DNA of 54,645 bases, from positions 1-54,645 of IMG/VR virus record IMGVR_UViG_3300048833_000212. One strand, 5' to 3'. Every line of letters begins with the position of its first letter. The first letter of the stretch is position 1. The notes beneath the pieces are model-generated. The model was not told the DNA's origin. It did no database searches and worked only from the letters and a program-made list of their open reading frames with translations. Origin of the DNA: a virus. Made by a program: the position numbers and the translations under genes. This document shows, piece after piece, positions 3,455 through 53,788 of this stretch.

Positions 3455-4195
3455 ATGCAAGTCTCTCTCATCGACTACACCGGAATGGGATCGCCCAACC
3501 CGGCTCGCCACGCCGCCAATGTCCTGGTCTTCACGAAGAGCACGCGGCTGACGATGTCGCCTGGCCTCTTCGCAGACATCGAAGGATGGGGCGAGGATCG
3601 CATTGCTGCGGAACTCCGCTACATGGCCGACACCATCCCTTCCTCCTGGGAGTTCGTCCACTACTCCTTCATCATCACCGGCGTGACGCGCGCATTCACG
3701 CACCAGTTCGTGCGGACGCGCACCGCCTCCTTCGCGCAGCAGACGATGCGTGTGCTGGATGTGAGCGAGGGGAAGGGATGGGAATACGGCACTGGGCCGT
3801 CCATCCTGGAGGATGACGACACGAAGCGCATCTATGACGATGCCATGAACGGGATCGCCTGGGCCTATCGCTCGCTGCAGGCGAGGGACGCTGCGACGGA
3901 GGATGCGCGCGGCATCCTGCCGACCAACATCCTGACCAACATCGCAGTGTCGATGAACCTTCGGACCTTCGTGGAGACGGTGCGGAAGCGCACCAGCCCG
4001 CGCGTCCAGGGAGAGTATCGCGATGTGCTGAAGGCCATGCGCGAGGCAGTGCTGGCCGTCCACCCGTGGGCGGAGGTCTTCCTGAACCGTGGACCGGACG
4101 AAGCCGCACGCGAACTCTATGCAGCCATCGGCACGCTCCCGAAGGAGCAGGCCATGAAGATGGCCAAGCTGCTCGACAAGGTGTATGCGCCATGA
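3455..4195 (+). CDS. thyX: flavin-dependent thymidylate synthase ThyX
   Basis: A 246-residue protein that methylates dUMP to dTMP using FAD and methylene-tetrahydrofolate. The signature region is RTRTASFAQQTMR at residues 87-99, corresponding to the family motif RHRX7S. A second conserved patch, LPTNILTNIAVSMNLRTF, carries the Asn-Leu-Arg dUMP-binding segment. Two motif positions differ: the His of RHR is Thr88 and the final Ser is Thr97. The ATG at 3455 follows GAAGGAAC. An ATGA overlap links it to the phosphatase gene. Family assignment is firm from motif order and length. Confidence 0.93.
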   Translation: MQVSLIDYTGMGSPNPARHAANVLVFTKSTRLTMSPGLFADIEGWGEDRIAAELRYMADTIPSSWEFVHYSFIITGVTRAFTHQFVRTRTASFAQQTMRVLDVSEGKGWEYGTGPSILEDDDTKRIYDDAMNGIAWAYRSLQARDAATEDARGILPTNILTNIAVSMNLRTFVETVRKRTSPRVQGEYRDVLKAMREAVLAVHPWAEVFLNRGPDEAARELYAAIGTLPKEQAMKMAKLLDKVYAP

Positions 4196-6019: not shown

Positions 6020-6459
6020 GCCACCCGAACCTCCCGATGCCGCGCTACAAGCATGGCGACATCGTCTGGACCTATCACATCAACTCCACGAAGGCACTCC
6101 ACGAGTGCCCGGATTGCCTCGGCACGAAGAAGTGGGAAGCGACCTCGCCTGCCGGGGAGAAGCACACCGTCTCCTGCCCACGCTGTGAGTCGATGTCCTA
6201 CCTGGACCGCTCCATCCCTCCCCTCACCTACACGAAGAGCGTGGTGGAGGTCCGGAGGCTGACTGTCGGCTCCATCCAGGTGGACACGAAGGAGCGCAAT
6301 GGTGGGCCGCAGATTTCCTACATGGCTCATGAGACCGGCATCGGCTCCGGCAGCATCTGGGCAGAAGATCGCCTGTTTGCTACTGCTGAGGCTGCGGAGG
6401 TCGCTGGCCAGGGCGCAGCGATGGATCTTCCAGGATTTCATCGAGACGCTTTCCAATGA
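6016..6459 (+). CDS. zinc-ribbon-like hypothetical protein, possibly frameshifted at its 3' end
   Basis: A 147-residue reading frame with two CxxC pairs (ECPDCLG and SCPRCES, residues about 33-58) that could bind zinc. It overlaps the previous gene (ATGA). The end of this frame (after AEAAEVAGQ) loses coding character. The +1-shifted frame then continues with a plausible helical sequence (RWIFQDFIETLSNEEARQ) that has no good start of its own. The two frames may be one gene of about 240 residues interrupted by a frameshift or sequence error near 6405-6425. Confidence 0.65.
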   Translation: MSHPNLPMPRYKHGDIVWTYHINSTKALHECPDCLGTKKWEATSPAGEKHTVSCPRCESMSYLDRSIPPLTYTKSVVEVRRLTVGSIQVDTKERNGGPQISYMAHETGIGSGSIWAEDRLFATAEAAEVAGQGAAMDLPGFHRDAFQ

Positions 6460-9047: not shown

Positions 9048-9305
9048 ATGAGCAACGACGAAGACATCATGGGCCAGTATGGCGAGGATCGCATCACGGG
9101 CTTCCGTGGGCGCATCACAGGCATTGTGCGCTACATCAGCGGCTGCACCCAGGTGCTGCTGACTCCGAAGGTCGGCACCGATGGGAAGATGCCGGAAGGC
9201 CAGTTCATCGACATCCAGCGCATCAAGGTCGATGAGACGGTGGTGCGCATCATGCTCGACAACGCGCCCACGCCCGGCTTCGATCAGCTGCCGAAGGCGC
9301 GCTGA
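9048..9305 (+). CDS. conserved small phage protein
   Basis: An 85-residue protein. The start at 9048 follows GAGAGAAG. The segment DRITGFRGRITGIVRYISG, with Cys-Thr-Gln and a later GQFIDIQRI, matches a small beta-barrel-like protein common in proteobacterial phages. Its function is unknown to me. It immediately precedes the polymerase gene (shared TGATG). Confidence 0.75.
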   Translation: MSNDEDIMGQYGEDRITGFRGRITGIVRYISGCTQVLLTPKVGTDGKMPEGQFIDIQRIKVDETVVRIMLDNAPTPGFDQLPKAR

Positions 9306-45396: not shown

Positions 45397-45696
45397 TCAC
45401 TTCACCTTCACGAACTCGTGGGCGACATCCCAGTTCAAATCCTGGGACCGGCCACCCTTCTTGATGTAGTCCTCATACACGATCCCCGGATTGCGCATGA
45501 TGATCGCGTGCGACTTGAAGCCGGTGGAGTTGGGACGGCGCGGGTTGGCCTCGCACGTGCTGGTCAGCGTCTTCCCCGCATGGGCGGAGGGACGCCCGGT
45601 GCCGGTGGCCTTCGCCTTCGGTGCCGCCTTCGGTGCCGCCTTCGGTGCCGCCTTCGCCTTCGGCGCCGTCTTCTTTGTCGTGGTGACTTTCGCCAT
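45397..45696 (-). CDS. basic protein, paralog 1 of the NPRR...GGR...WD domain family
   Basis: A 99-residue protein. The N-terminus is Lys/Ala/Pro repeats (APKAAPKAAPKAK). The C-terminal 45 residues carry NPRRPNSTGFKSHAIIMRN followed by GIVYEDYIKKGGRSQDLNWD. The same domain ends the gene at 45757 and makes up most of the gene at 51936. The basic tail suggests nucleic-acid binding. The RBS AGGAGAG is clear. Function is unknown. Confidence 0.75.
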   Translation of the reverse strand: MAKVTTTKKTAPKAKAAPKAAPKAAPKAKATGTGRPSAHAGKTLTSTCEANPRRPNSTGFKSHAIIMRNPGIVYEDYIKKGGRSQDLNWDVAHEFVKVK

Positions 45697-45756: not shown

Positions 45757-46383
45757 TCAGGCCTTCTTCGGCTCGCTCACCAGAACGTGCCCGAACTTGA
45801 TGTCCCAGCGGAGGTCCACATTGCGACCTCCCGCCGCGATGAAGTCTTCATACTTGATGCCCGGCTTCTGGAGGATGATCTCCATGCTGTTGAATCCGTG
45901 CGACGGATTGCGCCGGTGGTTCTTGTCCTTCACCGCCTTCAGCGTCATGCCGGTGAACTCCGCGACCTTCCCCCGCTTCGCCCCGCCAGCCGCCTTCAGT
46001 GCTGCCTTCTCCGCAGCCTTCTCCGCCTTCACCCGCGCGCGCTCCGCCTTCGCAGTGGTGGCCGCCACCGTCGCCTCCGCGACCTTCGCTGCGATGGAGC
46101 CGGTGACCTTCGTGGTCTTCTCCTTCGGCTGCGTGTTGGCCTCCAGATCGGCCGCAGCCTTCTCCACCGCCTTCGCCGGCACCGCCGCCTTCAGCGTCTC
46201 GGTGATCTTCGCGATCCGCTTCATGGCGGTGGCACGGTCGGTGAACTTGTTCACTTCCGGCTCACCCAGCATCTTCGCCATCGCGTTGTAGAGGTTCACG
46301 ATGCCCTTCATGTTCGCGGTGGCGGTCAAGCCTTCCGCTTCCACGATGCAGTCACCCGCTTCCTGCGCATCAATCTTCGCCAT
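45757..46383 (-). CDS. Ala/Lys-rich protein, paralog 2 of the NPRR...GGR...WD domain family
   Basis: A 208-residue protein. Start ATG 46383 follows GGAGCGAG. Residues about 1-75 are helical (GIVNLYNAMAKMLGEPEVNK), about 85-145 are Ala/Lys/Glu-rich helix, and the C-terminal 50 residues are the shared domain (RRNPSHGFNSMEIILQKPGI, YEDFIAAGGRNVDLRWDI). It looks like a chromatin-type basic protein with a conserved head. Confidence 0.75.
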   Translation of the reverse strand: MAKIDAQEAGDCIVEAEGLTATANMKGIVNLYNAMAKMLGEPEVNKFTDRATAMKRIAKITETLKAAVPAKAVEKAAADLEANTQPKEKTTKVTGSIAAKVAEATVAATTAKAERARVKAEKAAEKAALKAAGGAKRGKVAEFTGMTLKAVKDKNHRRNPSHGFNSMEIILQKPGIKYEDFIAAGGRNVDLRWDIKFGHVLVSEPKKA

Positions 46384-46462
46384 GTCACTCGCTCCATGAT
46401 GGCGCCGTCCCTCGGCGCCGTGGTGATGATAACTGAGCAGCACATGCTGCCCAGGCAGTTGA

Positions 46463-47416
46463 CTACTCGGCCAGCTTCAGCAGAAGCGTCTGGGCCATCG
46501 CCTTCTTCGTGCGCAGATCACCGACCCACGACCGTGCCAGCCGCGACTCAGCGGAGGTCGATGCGATGTGATCGCTCCAGAACGTGATACCGTTCATCAC
46601 GCCCCACGCATCCCCCGGAGTTGCGCCCGGTCCATTCACGATGGCGCCGATCAGCTGCTGAAGAACCTTCGGCTGATTCTCCGGCTGCATGATCACTGCC
46701 GCCAGCTCATTGTCCTCGATGATGTCCGGGAAGAAGGTCGGCAGCAGCACCTTGTTGACCGCATCCTCCAGCCCCAGCTTCGTCTTCGCCAGCAGCCGCG
46801 CATTCGCCTCATGCTGGCCGAAGGCTTCGTTGGCCAGCGCCAGCTGGAGCCGCGCCGCATTGAAGTCGAAAGCCTTCATGTGGTTCTGGCGATACTCCAC
46901 CGAGCCTTCGTTCATCGCGGCCATCATGGTGTTCATGCACACCACACGCACGCTCGTGGTGGAGAGCAGCGAAGCCTTCCCCACGATGTGGGGCGAAGTG
47001 AACAGGACGTATCCCTTCACCCTGTCGCCCTTCCGCACTTCAAACTCCCGGTTGAGGCGCATCAGCCCCCAGATGATCTCACCACCACGCAGTGAGCCGG
47101 CAGTCTCCAGCGCCGCGCCTCCCGCCTTCGCATACTCCCCCATGAACTCCAGCACGTCAGTGTTCTGGATCGGCGCCCACGCTTCGCCAGTGATGGTCAT
47201 CATCTTCTGGTCGCTGTCGCGCACGAGCGCATACTTGTTGTTGGCACGATAGACCTCGCCATCCGTGCCCTGGAAAAACATCGGCTGCTTCGTCACCATC
47301 CAGTCGATGCCAGCCGCCTTCGCCATCTCGGCAGGCGTGACCAGACCTTCGACCTTCGTGCCCTGGCCATGCCACGGCGTCTCACCGGCATATGCCATCG
47401 TCTCAACTTCAGAACT
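46463..47416 (-). CDS. DUF932 phage/plasmid-like protein
   Basis: A 317-residue protein. The N-terminal ETMAYAGETPWHGQGTKV and the central VRVVCMNTMMAAM with a following RQNH match the DUF932 / TIGR03299 family. This protein is common on plasmids and phages and has no settled function. ATG 47416 has AAGGAA 8 bases upstream. About 95 bases of leader separate it from the ribozyme at 47510. Confidence 0.9.
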   Translation of the reverse strand, partial: SSEVETMAYAGETPWHGQGTKVEGLVTPAEMAKAAGIDWMVTKQPMFFQGTDGEVYRANNKYALVRDSDQKMMTITGEAWAPIQNTDVLEFMGEYAKAGGAALETAGSLRGGEIIWGLMRLNREFEVRKGDRVKGYVLFTSPHIVGKASLLSTTSVRVVCMNTMMAAMNEGSVEYRQNHMKAFDFNAARLQLALANEAFGQHEANARLLAKTKLGLEDAVNKVLLPTFFPDIIEDNELAAVIMQPENQPKVLQQLIGAIVNGPGATPGDAWGVMNGITFWSDHIASTSAESRLARSWVGDLRTKKAMAQTLLLKLAE

Positions 47417-47509
47417 CATCACCGTCATTCCTTCTTCATCGACCGTGCCTGTTCCTCCGGAAAAAGGGAAGCCCCAAAATCCAGTCGGCACAAGTGCTGC
47501 ATTTGAGCT

Positions 47510-47579
47510 GGCTCATCAGCGGAGGATGCTCATGTCTCCGGACCTCCCCCGGCGCCGCGATGCCAGGGAGGGTTTCGCC
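47510..47579 (-). ncRNA. type II hammerhead ribozyme, copy A (slightly degenerate)
   Basis: On the minus strand: stem II GGC, core GAAA (47576-47573), stem III CCTCCC/GGGAGG closed by a CGGCGCCG-containing loop, GTC at 47543-47541, stem I CGGAG/CTCCG, core CTGATGA (47519-47513), stem II GCC. One unpaired C follows GAAA, so stem III has a one-base bulge; activity may be lower. It begins at the stop codon of the upstream gene (TAAGGC). Predicted cleavage lies between 47541 and 47540. Confidence 0.75.
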
Positions 47580-48020
47580 TTATGTGACGTATTGATATGA
47601 CCTGCTCTTCTCCGTGGGCACCCACAGGTATCCGCGACCGCCAACCCCTTGTGGCTTGTTGTTCCCTTCAACAAGCCCCATCAGCTTAAGATCATTGAGC
47701 GTCCCAGACACATTCCCCTCAAAGCCAGGCAAAGACCTTGACAGCTGCTGCTTGATCTCCCTGCTTCCAATCCCGTTTGGGTTCGCAGCGACAACGCGCA
47801 GGACAGCCTCACGCTGACGGTTTGTGACGCGGGGATCAGGGCTGCGGCGCTTCTCCCTTTGTGCTGCCGCCACCGGAGCCGCCACCGGAGCCGCCACCGG
47901 AGCCGCCACTGGCATTGCTGTCCCGTCAGCGAAGATCATCACTGACGTGTTGTCAGGGAAAATCCAGTCACCTTTCGTGACAAGGTGGATGACCTCATGC
48001 TTCTTAAAAGTTTCGCTCAT
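47580..48020 (-). CDS. winged-helix DNA-binding protein with Ala/Pro repeat linker
   Basis: A 146-residue protein. The linker contains three tandem Val-Ala-Ala-Pro units encoded by a 12-bp repeat. The C-terminal 70 residues form a winged helix (QREAVLRVVAANPNGIGSRE, GNVSGTLNDLKLMGLVEG), as in MarR/Rrf2-like or replication regulators. The RBS AAGGAACGAAG precedes ATG 48020. It is a candidate regulator of the phage. Confidence 0.75.
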   Translation of the reverse strand: MSETFKKHEVIHLVTKGDWIFPDNTSVMIFADGTAMPVAAPVAAPVAAPVAAAQREKRRSPDPRVTNRQREAVLRVVAANPNGIGSREIKQQLSRSLPGFEGNVSGTLNDLKLMGLVEGNNKPQGVGGRGYLWVPTEKSRSYQYVT

Positions 48021-48247
48021 CACTTCGTTCCTTCGTTCATGTTGCGTTCGCTCGCGAGCCGCAGCGCGGCTTTCGCTTTGGATGGCAGCTTCCGCACTGC
48101 GCGGAAATCGCCTGGGGTGGATAAGAAGAAGATCGTCACACCGCTGCTGTGGACGATACGCAAGTGGTTGGTCGATGTCCGTCCATCGACCTTCCATCCT
48201 TCGCCCAAGGTCTTCTCAACCTCAGTGAAGAATTTACGGACGCCCAT
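48020..48247 (-). CDS. HicA-like small protein
   Basis: A 75-residue protein. GEGWKVDGRTSTNHLRIVHS followed by FFLSTPGDFRAVRKLPSKAK matches the phage variant of the HicA fold (W.....GH...., then STPSD.RAL.NLR). Phage members are often stand-alone, with no HicB partner; none is adjacent here. The start is set by AGGAGG upstream and by stop overlaps on both sides. Confidence 0.75.
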   Translation of the reverse strand: MGVRKFFTEVEKTLGEGWKVDGRTSTNHLRIVHSSGVTIFFLSTPGDFRAVRKLPSKAKAALRLASERNMNEGTK

Positions 48248-48540
48248 CAGCGCCTCCTGCTGTAGTGGGTCCTGTGGCGAGGATAGGCGCGGCAGTGGTA
48301 GCAGAACACCGGCTCCACCGGAGCCTCCAGCCATGCGCGGTATCGGTCTGCGGAGCCGCGTGCCACGCAGGCCTCCATCGTCTCTCCGTCGCGGATGCCT
48401 CCGGCACCGCGTGGCGTGGCAGTGTAGCAGTCCAGGGATCGCGCCTCCGCCGCGAAGCGCCGTCCCAGCGGCGTGTCCGGTCCTGGCGTCCCGCAATGTG
48501 CGAGTGCCAGGAGAGTAAGGAGCATGAGCGCGCGCTTCAC
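48247..48540 (-). CDS. small lipoprotein
   Basis: A 97-residue protein with signal KRALMLLTLLALAHCGTPG and lipobox LAHC. The mature part contains CYTATP, EACVARGS and a CYHC pair. It overlaps its neighbours. It lies in the minus-strand block, so it may be made at a different time from the late lipoprotein at 42982. A role in host envelope change is possible. Confidence 0.7.
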   Translation of the reverse strand: MKRALMLLTLLALAHCGTPGPDTPLGRRFAAEARSLDCYTATPRGAGGIRDGETMEACVARGSADRYRAWLEAPVEPVFCYHCRAYPRHRTHYSRRR

Positions 48541-48902
48541 AGCGTGTTGCTCATACAGAAGGTGAAGGCGCGCTGCTCGGCTCCTGCTGAGGTGCGCGTC
48601 TCATATCCGATGGCGCTGGCAGCGCGGATGCGGAGGCGCACTGCCTCGCTGCTTCCGTTCCGCCGCGCCTGTGCGTCATTGATCGCCTGGAGCGATGCCA
48701 GGGGAACTCCCCGCAGCTTCGCATCGAAGGCGGAAGCCGCGATGGCTCCCAAGGCGCGGCAGATACGCTCCCGCTGGCTTGCGGTGGGCGCTGAGGCTGC
48801 GCTAGAGGGAGGGACAGGCGAGGGTGCGGGAGCAGGGAACACCCCGCTCGCGCCCCACGCTACGGCCAGCAAGGTCGCACTGGCCAGCAGCATCGTCTTC
48901 AT
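48537..48902 (-). CDS. exported hypothetical protein
   Basis: A 121-residue protein with signal peptide (KTMLLASATLLAVAWGASGV), a Pro/Ser/Ala linker and a helical domain with two Cys (ERICRALGAIAASAF ... AFTFCMSNTL) likely disulfide-bonded. It overlaps the lipoprotein gene by four bases, suggesting the two act together in the periplasm. Confidence 0.7.
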   Translation of the reverse strand: MKTMLLASATLLAVAWGASGVFPAPAPSPVPPSSAASAPTASQRERICRALGAIAASAFDAKLRGVPLASLQAINDAQARRNGSSEAVRLRIRAASAIGYETRTSAGAEQRAFTFCMSNTL

Positions 48903-48905
48903 GGC

Positions 48906-49100
48906 TCAGCCTCCCGCGCTGTAGGGCGAGACGCTGACCAGCACCGTCTTACCGCCAGTGGCGCTGTTCATGCACCGCACGTAGTCTTCGGCCTGCTTCT
49001 GCGCATCGGCAGGCGAGGCTGCAGTGATGATCTTCCCCGGCATGTTCTTCGGCGCGCCACCGAGCAGCTGGTTGGTCGTGTGGATGATGTAATAGTTCAT
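48906..49100 (-). CDS. small hypothetical protein
   Basis: A 64-residue protein (MNYYIIHTTNQLLGGAPKNM...). ATG 49100 follows GAAGGAACGAG, the same leader motif as genes behind other ribozymes. The ribozyme at 49119 ends 18 bases upstream. Function is unknown. Confidence 0.7.
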   Translation of the reverse strand: MNYYIIHTTNQLLGGAPKNMPGKIITAASPADAQKQAEDYVRCMNSATGGKTVLVSVSPYSAGG

Positions 49101-49118
49101 GACTCGTTCCTTCGTGGT

Positions 49119-49185
49119 TGGCTCATCAGGTGGGGTCATCCCCACGACCTTCGCGGCGCCGGGGGAGCGCCGCTAGGTTTCGCCA
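49119..49185 (-). ncRNA. type II hammerhead ribozyme, copy B
   Basis: Stem II TGGC/GCCA (4 bp), GAAA at 49181-49178, stem III CCT/AGG plus GCGGCG/CGCCGC with a CGGCGCCG in the 3' arm, GTC at 49148-49146, stem I GTGGGG/CCCCAC with a 4-base loop ATGA, CTGATGA at 49129-49123. The upstream stop codon TGA directly abuts stem II. Predicted cleavage lies between 49146 and 49145. Confidence 0.9.
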
Positions 49186-49356
49186 TCAGTGTGTCTTCCC
49201 TGTCACCATCTGCCCGATGATGAAGCGCGTCATGTCGTTTATGAACATGATGTGGTCTGCGCTCTTCGGCTCTTCGCTGAGGATCGCTCGCATGTGGGCA
49301 CGATATGCGCGCGCCTCCTTCGCGGCTGCGTCGCGCGCAGTCTTGTCCTCCAGCAT
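49186..49356 (-). CDS. small hypothetical protein
   Basis: A 56-residue protein (MLEDKTARDAAAKEARAYRA...). AAGGAGG lies 7 bases before ATG 49356 and the start overlaps the upstream stop. Helical; unknown. Confidence 0.68.
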   Translation of the reverse strand: MLEDKTARDAAAKEARAYRAHMRAILSEEPKSADHIMFINDMTRFIIGQMVTGKTH

Positions 49357-49766
49357 CACGCAGCCTCCTTCGCCAGCGCGATCTTCTCTGCGAAGGGAAG
49401 CGCGCTCCACTCCTTCTTCTCTTCGGTGCTCAGGCCGCAGTAGCTGTCGAAGCATCCGAGGTTCACCACGCAGTCTGCGATGTCGTCTGCGCCCATCTCA
49501 TCCGCGCCATCGATGTCGAATGCGATTGCGTTCCAGACGCGCGAGCATGCCTGGATGAAAGTCTTTCGGTCAGTAAGCCTTCTGGCCCACTCGCAGACGA
49601 TCTTGAACTCATCGCCAAGATCGTTGGCGGCCCATCCGCCATTGTTGTCCCATGGGTCAAGCCGTGTGACCGTCGCCCACTCTCGCGGCCCATCTCCTGA
49701 CAGGCTCAACGGATAGGAAATGCGATCCCCAACCGCAAGACCGTAGTGCCGCCCGTTTCTGCACAT
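49356..49766 (-). CDS. hypothetical protein
   Basis: A 136-residue acidic protein. ATG 49766 shares TGATG with the upstream stop; GTG 49769 is possible. YGLAVGDRISYPLSLSGDG suggests a small beta domain, then DIDGADEMGADDIADCVVN. No family is recognised. Confidence 0.68.
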   Translation of the reverse strand: MCRNGRHYGLAVGDRISYPLSLSGDGPREWATVTRLDPWDNNGGWAANDLGDEFKIVCEWARRLTDRKTFIQACSRVWNAIAFDIDGADEMGADDIADCVVNLGCFDSYCGLSTEEKKEWSALPFAEKIALAKEAA

Positions 49767-50017
49767 CACGCAGCCTCCATCATCTCGGCGCGGAACTCCC
49801 AGAGGTCTTGCGCCTCATTGAAGGAGAAGTGCCGCACGATCCAGTCTGCGCACTCGGTGCTGGTGGCCGTCATCGCCCACCGTCCCTTCGTGCCGTAGAA
49901 ATCCTTGTGGGACTCATACACCCACTCGCGCAGGCTGTCGTGAAGGTCGCGCTCTTCGCCCTGCGCAGCCTCCAACAAGCGCACGCGATCCTTCGCCTGC
50001 TTCTCATCCAACACCAT
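49766..50017 (-). CDS. small hypothetical protein
   Basis: An 83-residue protein starting at ATG 50017, 14 bases after ribozyme copy C and preceded by GAAGGAGCGAG. The frame stays open upstream through the ribozyme, but that part is not protein-like. Sequence SLREWVYESHKDFYGTKGRW has no known domain. Confidence 0.68.
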   Translation of the reverse strand: MVLDEKQAKDRVRLLEAAQGEERDLHDSLREWVYESHKDFYGTKGRWAMTATSTECADWIVRHFSFNEAQDLWEFRAEMMEAA

Positions 50018-50031
50018 CGTCTCGCTCCTTC

Positions 50032-50099
50032 GGCTCATCAGGTGGGGTCCATCCCCACGACGCTCCCCGGAACCTCGCGGCGCCAGGGAGCGTTTCGCC
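50032..50099 (-). ncRNA. type II hammerhead ribozyme, copy C
   Basis: Stem II GGC/GCC with an extra T-G pair, GAAA at 50096-50093, stem III CGCTCCC/GGGAGCG (7 bp) with a loop containing TGGCGCCG, GTC at 50061-50059, stem I GTGGGG/CCCCAC with loop ATGGA, CTGATGA at 50041-50035. It starts immediately after the stop TGA of the upstream gene. Predicted cleavage lies between 50059 and 50058. Confidence 0.93.
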
Positions 50100-50100
50100 A

Positions 50101-50325
50101 TCAGTCGTCGCCTGCTTCCTTCGGCACGATCTTTGCGCCAGCACCGAAGCCTTCGGTGATCACCTTCCCATCCGGCTCGCAGGCGATCTTCACGCCATGG
50201 ATGCTGACCACGAGAGGTCGCGACTGGAACACGATGCCGACCTGCCGCAGCGTCTCCTTTCCGCGCTTCCACACGAGCGTGACACTCATGCCGTATTTGA
50301 ATTTGAGGTCGCTGCCGATTGCCAT
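50101..50325 (-). CDS. small beta-rich hypothetical protein
   Basis: A 74-residue protein (MAIGSDLKFKYGMSVTLVWK...), start 50325 with GGAGG upstream. Alternating strands (GIVFQSRPLVVSIHGVKIAC) suggest a small barrel. Unknown. Confidence 0.68.
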   Translation of the reverse strand: MAIGSDLKFKYGMSVTLVWKRGKETLRQVGIVFQSRPLVVSIHGVKIACEPDGKVITEGFGAGAKIVPKEAGDD

Positions 50326-50621
50326 CACGCGACCTCCTGCGTGGAGAGAGGGATCACCGACTGATAGAGGCTCCACGCGAGCCACCGACCGCCAGTGCGC
50401 TTCCGGACCTCCGCCAGCAGAGCGTCCCAGGTCATGCCCGTCTCCCCCTCCACTTCTGCGATGGCGTCCAGCACCACGCGATCCACGCCGCCATATGCGA
50501 GCGTAGCGCACTCACTCGGCGCGTGGAAAGCAGCCATGTCTTCGCTGATGTCTGCCATCAGCTGGATCGCCTGCTCATTCGCGCGCCACACGCGACCGAA
50601 AGCCGCGCCAAGGTTCATCAT
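50325..50621 (-). CDS. hypothetical protein
   Basis: A 98-residue mostly helical protein. ATG 50621 has GGAG 8 bases upstream; GTG 50630 is an in-frame alternative. The stop overlaps the next start. No motif is recognised. Confidence 0.65.
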   Translation of the reverse strand: MMNLGAAFGRVWRANEQAIQLMADISEDMAAFHAPSECATLAYGGVDRVVLDAIAEVEGETGMTWDALLAEVRKRTGGRWLAWSLYQSVIPLSTQEVA

Positions 50622-50635
50622 CACTCTCACTCCGT

Positions 50636-51025
50636 TCAGGTCTTGATGCGGTTCAGGATGCGGGTGAACTCGCGAAGGAGTTCCCCGCGCGCTTCTGTCT
50701 TCGCAGCCTCCAGCGCGTTGGAGAAGATGTCAGTGCTGCCAGAGGTCGCATTGCAGGCGGAGGTCAGCAGGCGATCCGACAAGTGGGCCACCGTCTCGCG
50801 CGCCGTCGCGATCATCGCATCATCATCCTCCATGCAGTGAGGGTCGAAGCGATAGAGTTCATCAGCAGTGAACTGCGCGACGGCCAGACGGCGCGTGTCG
50901 CTCCAGTCAAGCCTTCCACCATCTGCCAGCGCCTCGCTCATCGCCTTCGCGCGGCTCAAGGCTTCGTCTCGCGCACCCTCGACATTGGCGAGGATCATCT
51001 GCGCAGCGCGGCTCTTCGTCTTCAT
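50636..51025 (-). CDS. hypothetical helical protein
   Basis: A 129-residue protein, MKTKSRAAQMILANVEGARD..., start 51025 behind GAAGGAACGAG, 14 bases after ribozyme copy D. The first gene of a three-gene cistron group (129, 98 and 74 residues) bounded by ribozymes D and C. Unknown function. Confidence 0.68.
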   Translation of the reverse strand: MKTKSRAAQMILANVEGARDEALSRAKAMSEALADGGRLDWSDTRRLAVAQFTADELYRFDPHCMEDDDAMIATARETVAHLSDRLLTSACNATSGSTDIFSNALEAAKTEARGELLREFTRILNRIKT

Positions 51026-51039
51026 CGTCTCGTTCCTTC

Positions 51040-51107
51040 GGCTCATCAGGTGGGGTCCATCCCCACGACGCTCCCCGGAACCTCGCGGCGCCGGGGAGCG
51101 TTTCGCC
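51040..51107 (-). ncRNA. type II hammerhead ribozyme, copy D (best formed)
   Basis: Stem II GGC/GCC, GAAA at 51104-51101, stem III CGCTCCCCGG/CCGGGGAGCG (10 perfect bp) with a CGGCGCCG at the loop, GTC at 51069-51067, stem I GTGGGG/CCCCAC with loop ATGGA, CTGATGA at 51049-51043. The upstream DUF2786 gene ends at 51110. Predicted cleavage lies between 51067 and 51066. Confidence 0.95.
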
Positions 51108-51109
51108 AT

Positions 51110-51850
51110 TCACTTGAGCAGGCCTGCGGTCTTCGTCGCAGCAGGCTTCTTGTCGGCGCCAACCGACATCGTCAGCTGCGCCTTCGCGCCGTGCTCCCGC
51201 CCGGCTTCGCTCGCTGCCGAGTAGCGGTTCACCGTCACAGCCTTGCGCGGCTTCGCCAGCTTCACGTTGTTGTCCACCCAGGCCTGCGCAGCCGACATCT
51301 TCGCCTCATAGAGGTTGACGACCACGAGCGCACGCCCATCGCTCTCAGCGGTGCCGCCTTCCTTCGCCTGCTTGATGAGTTCCTTGCAGCGCCAGTAGAT
51401 CGTCTTGGCTGCCGCATTCGTGAAGTCGGTGCGCGCGCGAGCCGCAGTCAGCTGCATGTTCGCCTTCGCAGCGATCAGCGCGCCAGCCCACACGCCGCTC
51501 AAGATCATCTTCGCGACCGAGTGTGCGACCTCCACATCTGCGCGCGTCCCCACGAAGGTCACGATCAGCGTCTGCGACGGGGAGCGGGTCCAGTAGAATT
51601 TGCAGAAGTAAAGTTCAGCGATGGCGGAGCAAATCCAGCGCGACCACGGGCTGGTGTTGAACTTGTAGCCAAAGGTCGCAGCGTCCACCGTCTCTTCCAC
51701 CGCATCGTCGCCTGCGATGTCAGCCTGGCTGAGGTTGTGCTCCAAGAGCATCGCGTGCGCCTTCGCCAGCGCGCTCTGGCGCTCCGCTTCGCTGCTGTTG
51801 TTGTTGGCGAGCGCCAGCAGCTTGCGAATGCGGTCAATCGTCTTTTCCAT
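51110..51850 (-). CDS. DUF2786-domain protein
   Basis: A 246-residue protein. The N-terminal RIRKLLALANNNSSEAERQS followed by LAKAHAMLLEHNLS is the DUF2786 unit. The middle (WSRWICSAIAELYFCKFYWT, VTFVGTRADVEVAHSVAKMI) matches the companion domain found in phage and plasmid members. Biochemical role unknown. It forms its own cistron between ribozymes E and D. Confidence 0.88.
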   Translation of the reverse strand: MEKTIDRIRKLLALANNNSSEAERQSALAKAHAMLLEHNLSQADIAGDDAVEETVDAATFGYKFNTSPWSRWICSAIAELYFCKFYWTRSPSQTLIVTFVGTRADVEVAHSVAKMILSGVWAGALIAAKANMQLTAARARTDFTNAAAKTIYWRCKELIKQAKEGGTAESDGRALVVVNLYEAKMSAAQAWVDNNVKLAKPRKAVTVNRYSAASEAGREHGAKAQLTMSVGADKKPAATKTAGLLK

Positions 51851-51868
51851 CTCAGTCTCCTTCGTGTG

Positions 51869-51933
51869 GGCTCATCAGGTGGGGTCCATCCCCACGACAC
51901 ATCCCTGCTCCTGGGAGCAGGGAGTGTTTCGCC
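51869..51933 (-). ncRNA. type II hammerhead ribozyme, copy E
   Basis: Stem II GGC/GCC, GAAA at 51930-51927, stem III CAC/GTG then CCCTGCTC/GAGCAGGG with loop CCAG or similar and a small internal bulge, GTC at 51898-51896, stem I GTGGGG/CCCCAC with loop ATGGA, CTGATGA at 51878-51872. No CGGCGCCG is present here, showing that the palindrome is not part of the ribozyme. Predicted cleavage lies between 51896 and 51895. Confidence 0.92.
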
Positions 51934-51935
51934 AT

Positions 51936-52160
51936 TCACTTCCGCGCGCGGCGCGGCTTCGTCGTGGTCACGTTCCCGTGGGCGATGTCCCAGCGGACAT
52001 CGACCGGGCGGCCACCCTTCGCCACAAAGTCTTCGTAGGTGATGCCAGGGTTGCGGAGGATGATCTTCATGGAGTGGAAGCCGCAGCTGTCCTTCCGGCG
52101 CGGGTTGGTCGCGACGGTCGGAAAGAGCGGCTTGGAAGCAATGGAAGAGATGCGGGCCAT
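51936..52160 (-). CDS. paralog 3 of the NPRR...GGR...WD domain family
   Basis: A 74-residue protein consisting almost only of the shared domain (NPRRKDSCGFHSMKIILRNP, GITYEDFVAKGGRPVDVRWD) plus a basic tail (TTKPRRARK). It is the shortest member of the family in this genome and defines the domain borders. It stands alone between ribozymes F and E. Function is unknown. Confidence 0.78.
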   Translation of the reverse strand: MARISSIASKPLFPTVATNPRRKDSCGFHSMKIILRNPGITYEDFVAKGGRPVDVRWDIAHGNVTTTKPRRARK

Positions 52161-52179
52161 TGTCGTGTTCCTTCGTGTG

Positions 52180-52232
52180 GGCTCATCAGGTGGGGTCCAT
52201 CCCCACGACGCTCCAATGCGGAGCGTTTCGCC
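52180..52232 (-). ncRNA. type II hammerhead ribozyme, copy F (minimal form)
   Basis: Stem II GGC/GCC, GAAA at 52229-52226, stem III CGCTCC/GGAGCG with a 5-base loop GCATT, GTC at 52209-52207, stem I GTGGGG/CCCCAC with loop ATGGA, CTGATGA at 52189-52183. With 53 bases it is the smallest copy and a near-minimal hammerhead. Predicted cleavage lies between 52207 and 52206. Confidence 0.95.
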
Positions 52233-52234
52233 AT

Positions 52235-52381
52235 TCACTTCGCAGCGCGCCTCTCAGCAGCGCGCGCTTCCTTCAGCTGCTCACGCAGCTTCGCGACCCG
52301 GCGCAGCAGCGCCTCTGTCGGATAGGAAGCGGCGTGGATGCGTGCGGTTAAGAGGCGCGCTGCAATCGTCTTCGCGTTCAT
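52235..52381 (-). CDS. small basic helical protein
   Basis: A 48-residue protein from ATG 52381 to TGA at 52237-52235. It begins MNAKTIAARLLTARIHAA and continues as an Arg/Lys/Ala helix (LRRVAKLREQLKEARAAERR). It is preceded by AAAGGAAC and lies between ribozymes G and F. It is the first gene of the minus-strand block. Confidence 0.65.
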   Translation of the reverse strand: MNAKTIAARLLTARIHAASYPTEALLRRVAKLREQLKEARAAERRAAK

Positions 52382-52396
52382 CGTCGTGTTCCTTTG

Positions 52397-52459
52397 GACT
52401 CATCAGGCGAGGTCTATCCCCGCGACCTTCGCGGCGCCGAGGCGCCGCTAGGTTTCGTC
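52397..52459 (-). ncRNA. type II hammerhead ribozyme, copy G (first in the transcript)
   Basis: Stem II is GAC/GTC, a compensating change relative to GGC/GCC in the other six copies. GAAA at 52456-52453, stem III CCT/AGG plus GCGGCGC/GCGCCGC with loop CTCG, GTC at 52426-52424, stem I GCGGGG/CCTCGC (one G-T pair) with loop ATAGA, CTGATGA at 52406-52400. No gene lies upstream, so cleavage would trim the 5' leader of the whole transcript. Predicted cleavage lies between 52424 and 52423. Confidence 0.9.
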
Positions 52460-52674
52460 GTTGTTTTTGTTTGGTTGAGAAGACCTGGGGTTAACCTTCC
52501 GAGCGTCGCTGCTGTCTCCGTCTCCTTCCCCTGTGGGTGCGCCTCCCGGCGCTCCTTTCTGGTAGGAAGATCGGCGCATGCTTCGCCTTCTTCTCTGGGT
52601 TCGCTCCGGTGGGTCGCTTCCTCTCCCAGGCTCTTCCGCCGCAGGGGTTAGAGGGTCGCTCTCCGAAACTACTA

Positions 52675-52700
52675 GCCGGTCAACTACCGGCCGGTTTTTT
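52675..52700 (+). terminator. intrinsic terminator on the plus strand
   Basis: Stem GCCGGT (52675-52680) / ACCGGC (52686-52691), loop CAACT, then CGG and six T. It is the only clear stem-plus-T-tract terminator I found. It points rightward although no plus-strand gene lies to its left for about 9 kb, implying an untranslated plus-strand RNA or antisense transcription. Confidence 0.75.
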
Positions 52701-53226
52701 CGTCGCTCTTCGGTCCCTTCCGGGAGCCTGCGACGGGGAACCGTATCCCCGCTTCGCTACTCAGCGCCTCCTGGGGATCAGCCCCACCGCGTTTCGCCAG
52801 ACCTTTATCGTCCAGCGCCTGGAGGAAGGGAAGCAGGAAAAGTGATGGAACCCAAAAAATTTTTGCATAGAGAGGAACGCGCGCGCGGCTTCTGCAGAAG
52901 GCTCCCTGCCCGGCCACCGGGAGAGGTCGCACCCGGCTCCCCTCCGATGGGCGCCGGGGAGGCGCACCCGGCTCCCCTCCCTCCGGTGGGGTCCGGACCT
53001 CGCACCCCACCCCTCGCCCATCCCTGCCCAGCCGCGCCCCATTCCAGGGGAGGGAGGGGAGGCGACGAAAGCGGACACCCACAGGAATGGGCTAGGATGG
53101 GCGCCTAGGCCTGTCTCCCGGTTCCGCACAAGATCGTATGTCCCACGCTCCGAAAACCAGCCTAGCACCCCTCCCTGAAGATGTGAAATCTATTCTTGCA
53201 ATTACTGCATTGTTACGATCCGTTTT

Positions 53227-53267
53227 CAGTATTGGCTGCAAGAACTCGTGCAGTATTGGAAGAACTC
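53227..53267. repeat. short direct repeats in the AT-richer segment
   Basis: CAGTATTGG occurs at 53227-53235 and 53251-53259, and AAGAACTC at 53240-53247 and 53260-53267. The spacing of 20-24 bases (about two helical turns) suggests protein-binding sites in the promoter region between the divergent blocks. Confidence 0.55.
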
Positions 53268-53339
53268 ATCAAGTGAAAGAAGGCTGGTGAAAGGTCTAAA
53301 TAATTAGTTCATCCAGTTTGACTTTCCTTATCTTCCCCA

Positions 53340-53548
53340 GATCATTCCGGCTCCCAAAGGCATGTCGGGCTGGAGCCGGATCATTCTTGCAGCGGGCTGA
53401 CCGACCTTCCGCCAGAGGATCATTCCTCCAGCGTCCCAGGTTCCCTTCTGGCAGAGGATCATTCTTGCAGCGGGCTGACCGACCTTCCGCCAAAGGATCA
53501 TTCCTCCAGCGGCTGGACCTTCGACCTTTTGCCAGAGGATCATTCTGC
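53340..53548. repeat. iteron-like 39-bp tandem repeats (six units)
   Basis: GATCATTC begins at 53340, 53379, 53418, 53457, 53496 and 53538, a 39-bp period with a last step of 42. Units 2 and 4 are nearly identical (GATCATTCTTGCAGCGGGCT, then GACCGACCTTCCGCC). Units 3 and 5 share GATCATTCCTCCAGCG. Because 39 is divisible by three, false reading frames with 13-residue repeats appear on both strands. Location next to an AT-rich segment between divergent operons fits an origin, centromere-like site or operator array. Confidence 0.75.
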
Positions 53549-53788
53549 TGGTAGTGTGAACTGGCTCCCCACCGCGACGATCCCCCGGCGCCGCGATGGC
53601 GATGCTGGCAGTCACCGGCTCTTCGATGATGGGCGGAGACTTTACTGAACATGTCATGAATAGTTGAAGAACTGTTTCACCAGCACCAGGAAAACCAGCT
53701 TTCCTTCCACGAAGAGTTCCCCGATTATTCCGCCTGCCGCAAAAGTGGTGTGGATAACCCGCACACAAGTCGGCAGGAGACTTATGCT

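Follow-up and report, generated by a model that had tools for sequence, protein, structure and literature searches.

The hammerhead ribozymes of viroids, satellites and retrozymes, whose task is to cleave multimeric circular RNA or the RNA of retroelements, belong to types I or III. The elements considered here have the same catalytic core but are of type II, and they stand as single copies between the genes of a tailed phage. Seven of them, which we identify from their sequence as type II hammerhead ribozymes, lie on the minus strand at positions 47510-52459 of the complete IMG/VR virus record IMGVR_UViG_3300048833_000212, whose 54,645 bases were analysed as a whole and are referred to below as the window. 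Cleavage that would divide one transcript into groups of cistrons is, in our opinion, the most likely function of these elements.

Clustered hammerheads of prophages, according to Perreault et al. 2011 (PMC3088659), flank single genes or short gene blocks, the anti-restriction gene ardA among them. It was proposed there that they cut polycistronic RNA and so turn the long transcripts of phages into messenger RNAs (mRNAs) the length of an operon or a gene. In vitro, tandem hammerheads were seen to cleave the polycistronic RNA that contains them, and the phage-associated triple array of Agrobacterium tumefaciens does so in Escherichia coli as well (PMC3088659). The window copies resemble these clusters, and the Rfam type II family (RF02276), in their topology, core, GUC site and short stem II, and in their clustering on one strand around genes or gene blocks in phage DNA. 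They differ in number, there being seven copies in the window and up to 12 in other arrays among the matches listed, as against clusters of no more than three in the text of Perreault et al. 2011 (PMC3088659), and in a stem I variant of their own (GUGGGG-AUGGA-CCCCAC), for which no match was found elsewhere in IMG/VR. An earlier, sequence-only reading of this locus had taken a regular punctuating array to be unknown. This was wrong in kind, given the flanking clusters and the same processing proposal in that work. Arrays of 5-12 copies recur among IMG/VR contigs as well as in Streptomyces phages that are in culture. Thus, the type of array is already known; our survey lends it further weight and identifies cultured phages that carry it. 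A literature search, with subscription papers outside its reach, turned up neither arrays as large as these nor any array in an R4-type phage, which is not proof of novelty.

Seven hammerheads, mostly between stop codons and Shine-Dalgarno sequences

The first line of evidence is the motif itself. All seven copies have an intact core and three stems, and their elements follow one order: GGC or GAC, GAAA, the stem III hairpin, GUC, the stem I hairpin, CUGAUGA, and GCC or GUC. Stem II is open, stems I and III are closed by loops, and the pairs adjacent to the core are intact (A15.1-U16.1, C-G at stem II, and that of stem I), while the invariant core (GAAA / NUH / CUGANGA) is present in the type II circular order in every copy. 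Seven hammerheads were found by a bulge-tolerant structural scan for core and stems, all of them on the minus strand, and a core-only search that made no demand on the stems gave the same result, the plus strand being empty in both; a stricter structural scan retained six in the window, compared with 0.025 per Markov-shuffled window. Minimum free energy (MFE) folding yields the exact hammerhead three-way junction in all copies but A, with z values from -2.3 to -4.5, and stem III is predicted to be a strong hairpin in all seven. Copy C matches copy D at 98% identity along 87 nucleotides (nt).

The second line of evidence is placement. Six copies begin 0-2 nt after a stop codon (2 nt for copy F), and six end shortly before the next ATG, at 14, 14, 15, 18, 19 and 19 nt (19 nt for copy F; 15 nt for copy G, which precedes an open reading frame (ORF) for 48 residues). 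The distance is about 90 nt for copy A, and copy G has a non-coding leader rather than a gene directly upstream. AAGGA or a similar sequence, the Shine-Dalgarno (SD) sequence, lies between ribozyme and start codon, in nearly every copy only a few nt behind stem II, and is unpaired in the predicted folds. Located between stop codon and SD, a cut would separate cistrons and harm neither. This placement agrees with that described in the sequence-only reading. The structural and core-only scans likewise confirm the coordinates and circular order it had given for the seven copies, and its six cleavage sites are the residues computed here from the motif (Table 1), to which copy A adds one more.

Arrays in other viruses

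The third line of evidence is recurrence. The survey combined pattern scans of IMG/VR with a search through relatives, and its locus counts are lower bounds. At least 63 loci contain three or more hammerheads, and in 62 of these 63 all copies occupy one strand; some pattern loci overlap the same or near-identical contigs, so that the 63 are not all independent. The largest array among the matches listed has 12 copies in 7.5 kilobases (kb; L496), and an independent count with the Rfam model reaches 11 on one contig. It should be noted that the exact pattern also occurs in 118 stretches of bacterial genomes; only eight of these pass the stem test and none forms an array, so nearly all of them are chance matches.

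Placement statistics were collected for 209 ribozymes in 37 arrays of four or more copies each, from which obvious duplicates had been removed, with random positions in the same spans as the control. Relative to a stop codon, the ribozyme sits between -10 and +3 nt in 67% of cases, compared with 7% of random positions, and an SD plus start comes 8-35 nt behind it in 83%, compared with 10%. Only 11% of the ribozymes, as against 48% of random positions, fall inside a long ORF. In seven phage loci the stems covary, the second pair of stem II being GC, CG, AT or TA and the first pair of stem I being CG, TA or GC; all stems are present in 43 of the 69 core-only matches in these loci, versus 0.08 in shuffles. 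A conserved core with stems that vary freely but stay paired implies that catalysis is the property retained. In four loci (L011, L099, L102 and L078), two hammerheads stand back to back at one end of the array, at a spacing of 68-69 nt that is too short to accommodate a gene.

Some arrays belong to cultured phages. The Rfam hammerhead matches number nine in Streptomyces phage R4 and eleven in phage Salutena, and locus L031 is Streptomyces phage Hank144. These three phages (Arquatrovirinae) share with the window type II copies (8-11 in each) on the leftward strand, among small genes mostly without known function. They differ from it in gene content and show no blastn similarity to it, and many of the Hank144 copies in addition have an extended stem I and could form pseudoknots. 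In R4 (L243, NC_019414), the tiny annotated genes gp60.1, gp67.1 and gp75.1 occupy the same positions as type II hammerheads (3763-3846, 6126-6218 and 9074-9175) and for this reason look like misannotated ribozymes, and the annotated starts of gp72, gp76 and gp81 extend into hammerheads. One hammerhead of Hank144 (L501, 1613-2002) ends 15 nt before an OCR-like antirestriction gene, a neighbour that recalls ardA beside the hammerheads of A. tumefaciens and Legionella (PMC3088659).

Contig L124 was found via a relative, 66% identical, of the window's DUF2786 gene product. It carries ten hammerheads in 5 kb, nearly one per gene, of which nine are complete and the last is truncated where the contig ends; each of the nine has complementarity between loop I and the tail (4-7 base pairs (bp)), and loop and tail vary together. 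Two other contigs were reached through the small protein encoded between copies F and E: one with nine copies, in which stem II is GCC/GGC (L250), and one with four, in which it is GUC/GAC, GAC/GUC and others (L258). The hammerheads of the window and L124 occupy common junctions, namely the leader, the position before gene 2 (Table 1), the gap between gene 2 and the DUF2786 gene, and the position after the latter. Stem identity at these four junctions is 0.50-0.54, about that of random window-L124 pairs (0.503), whereas among copies of one genome it is 0.74 in the window, 0.81 in L124 and 0.84 in L250. This indicates homogenisation or recent duplication inside each genome. The leader copy, with GAC/GUC in both the window and L124, is an exception that hints at orthology. 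At 8940-8970 of L124, a remnant-like GAGAAACGGAGGAGGAG directly follows a stop codon but lacks a subsequent GTC...CTGATGA, and is possibly a decayed hammerhead between two genes. Comparison of the window region with phage records by blastn gave no similarity, and the stretches examined of two phages with DUF2786 relatives, BcepGomr and Aminobacter phage Erebus, contain no hammerheads.

Genes and other features of the window

The plus strand of the window encodes the terminase, fused protease/major head protein, portal and tail genes of a tailed phage, and its right part holds a leftward (minus-strand) set of mostly small genes without assigned function. From copy G to copy A, the blocks between successive hammerheads contain 1, 1, 1, 3, 3 and 5 genes (Table 1).

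Table 1. Hammerhead copies, gene blocks and leader of the window. Cleavage positions are computed from the motif, the residue 5' of the site being given first; bits are RF02276 scores and z values are from MFE folding.
Feature	Position	Strand	Cleavage	Basis and remarks
Leader, non-coding, upstream of copy G	52460..52760	-		Alignable with L124 leader; holds a hairpin
Copy G (leader copy, stem II GAC/GUC)	52397..52459	-	52424/52423	Structural scan, MFE fold
48-residue ORF, first cistron	52235..52381	-		ORF list; placement after copy G
Copy F	52180..52232	-	52207/52206	37.4 bits, MFE fold
74-residue protein (gene 2)	51936..52160	-		Homologue in L124, 61% identity
Copy E	51869..51933	-	51896/51895	22 bits, z -4.1; between gene 2 and DUF2786 gene
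DUF2786/DUF7168 protein (phrog_421)	51110..51850	-		66% identity to L124 protein
Copy D	51040..51107	-	51067/51066	32.5 bits, z -4.5
Three-gene block between D and C	50101..51025	-		ORFs 50636-51025, 50325-50621, 50101-50326
Copy C	50032..50099	-	50059/50058	32.1 bits, z -3.7
Three-gene block between C and B	49186..50017	-		ORFs 49766-50017, 49356-49766, 49186-49357
Copy B	49120..49184	-	49146/49145	Structural scans, z -3.7
Five-gene block between B and A	47580..49100	-		ORF list
Copy A	47510..47579	-	47541/47540	28.8 bits; 5-bp pseudoknot, not MFE fold
phrog_1221 ORF, gene after copy A	46463..47491	-		ORF list, PHROG match

The true start of the phrog_1221 ORF is probably further downstream, near 47418. 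Searches of Pfam and PHROG gave no match for the 48-residue ORF. The product of gene 2 has two longer paralogues on the minus strand (45397-45696 and 45757-46443), the three being marked by the motif PGIxYEDF..GGR..D..WD, and homologues of this family occur on many IMG/VR contigs, some of which bear hammerhead arrays. The leader hairpin (GCCGGU-AGUUG-ACCGGC; 52670-52697, minus strand), upstream of the first ribozyme, has a counterpart in L124 (6716-6737; GCCCGU-AGUUG-ACGGGC) with a compensatory change in the stem and an invariant loop. It has no match in Rfam, and a pattern search of IMG/VR recovered it only in L124 among the contigs matched. Upstream of the leader, at 53378-53553, lie four copies of a tandem repeat of about 39-42 bases (GGATCATTC...). 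No tRNA genes were found in the window.

Probable processing of a long transcript, and alternatives

In the proposed mechanism, the seven hammerheads would be transcribed within one long leftward phage mRNA, and each would cleave in cis, immediately 3' of the C in GUC. The stem III hairpin, bearing a 2',3'-cyclic phosphate, would then close the upstream piece shortly behind its final stop codon; the downstream piece would open with a 5'-OH, followed by the stem I hairpin and, close behind, SD and start codon. From what is established for RNase E, a start of this form should be disfavoured by 5'-monophosphate-sensitive decay. The long transcript would thereby be converted into gene- or block-sized mRNAs with structured and chemically unusual ends, whose stability and translation could differ.

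We regard such division of one long leftward mRNA by the hammerheads as probable. The features that lead to this reading are the chance expectation of 0.025 such motifs, the six hammerheads recovered as MFE folds, the covariation, the stop-to-SD placement, the confinement of loci to one strand, the scan for promoters and terminators, and the precedent in prophages. In that scan, 46400-53400 held only two promoter-like sites (1.1 expected), neither at a hammerhead copy, and the terminator-like sites listed on the minus strand were inside genes, none at the copies. Stem III has no U-run behind it and is therefore not a terminator; we have rejected that assignment. From these features we infer that the copies would cleave in vivo, that the operon would be co-transcribed, and that mRNA stability and stoichiometry would be affected.

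Several observations weigh against this reading. In the search with the Rfam type II model, which the sequence-only reading had proposed as a check, five copies scored, four of them (F, D, C and A) at E≤0.001 for this genome, but only copy F exceeds the gathering cut-off of 37 bits, and B and G were not detected. Copy A is divergent, with a 5-bp stem I, an 11-nt loop and a bulge in stem III, and its MFE fold is not a hammerhead (z -0.1). Moreover, the pseudoknot between loop I and the tail reaches 4 bp or more in this copy alone (5 bp, UGAGC/GCUCA); the other six have 1-3 bp there, in which they differ from the Hammerhead_II clusters, and beyond copy A the pseudoknot found no support as a general feature of the window copies. 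According to Perreault et al. 2011 (PMC3088659), weakening the pseudoknot of a type II construct lowers the rate 20- to 100-fold at 0.5 mM Mg2+, and a pseudoknot is predicted in about 40% of natural hammerheads and lacking in about 60%. The six copies may use another contact, cut more slowly or need more Mg2+.

The similarity of copies within each genome, far above that at the junctions shared with L124, and the near identity of copies C and D would also be expected if the ribozymes were mainly spacers spread by duplication and recombination, whose near-identical blocks allow small gene cassettes to be exchanged through homologous recombination and whose self-cutting is incidental or only tolerated; the flanked genes, mostly without known function and differing between phages, fit this as well. 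We nevertheless consider it unlikely, because recombination could use any repeat and by itself leaves the conserved catalytic core, the covarying stems and the fixed stop-to-SD position unaccounted for. Lower still is the probability that we assign to a translation or stability device that works without cleavage, with the region of stem II and the pseudoknot gating ribosome access, or stem III acting as a 3' stabilising hairpin. The closeness of the SD to stem II and the strength of stem III in all seven copies would suit such a device, but the predicted folds leave the SD unpaired, and conservation lies in the catalytic core, which the device could dispense with. That these are not ribozymes at all, but chance, coding sequence (ATGGCGAAA being M-A-K) or a generic palindromic repeat, is hardly credible: some ORFs do pass in frame through copies C and D, but the frame differs among copies, for which reason the coding reading was rejected; the rarity of the motif in shuffled windows speaks against it as well, and the covarying stems and the same placement across 37 arrays refute it.

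Processing by cleavage remains our preferred reading. It is conceivable, though speculative, that it extends to many unrelated tailed phages, in which type II hammerheads in stop-to-SD gaps would act as a general punctuation of mRNA. The 5'-OH/hairpin and hairpin/cyclic-phosphate ends would let mRNA decay and gene dosage escape the 5'-monophosphate-preferring pathways of the host, and the copies would be kept alike within a genome by recombination.

The purpose of bacterial and phage hammerheads has been an open question since 2010-2011, and a 2017 review called their role open. As the present case and the survey show, arrays that run nearly gene by gene recur, and their copies are strictly placed between stop codon and SD. 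The annotation of R4 is also corrected, in that several of its 'genes' look like ribozymes. Because cultured phages carry such arrays (Streptomyces phage R4, on S. coelicolor, has nine copies), the question can be addressed in a laboratory phage rather than a metagenomic contig.

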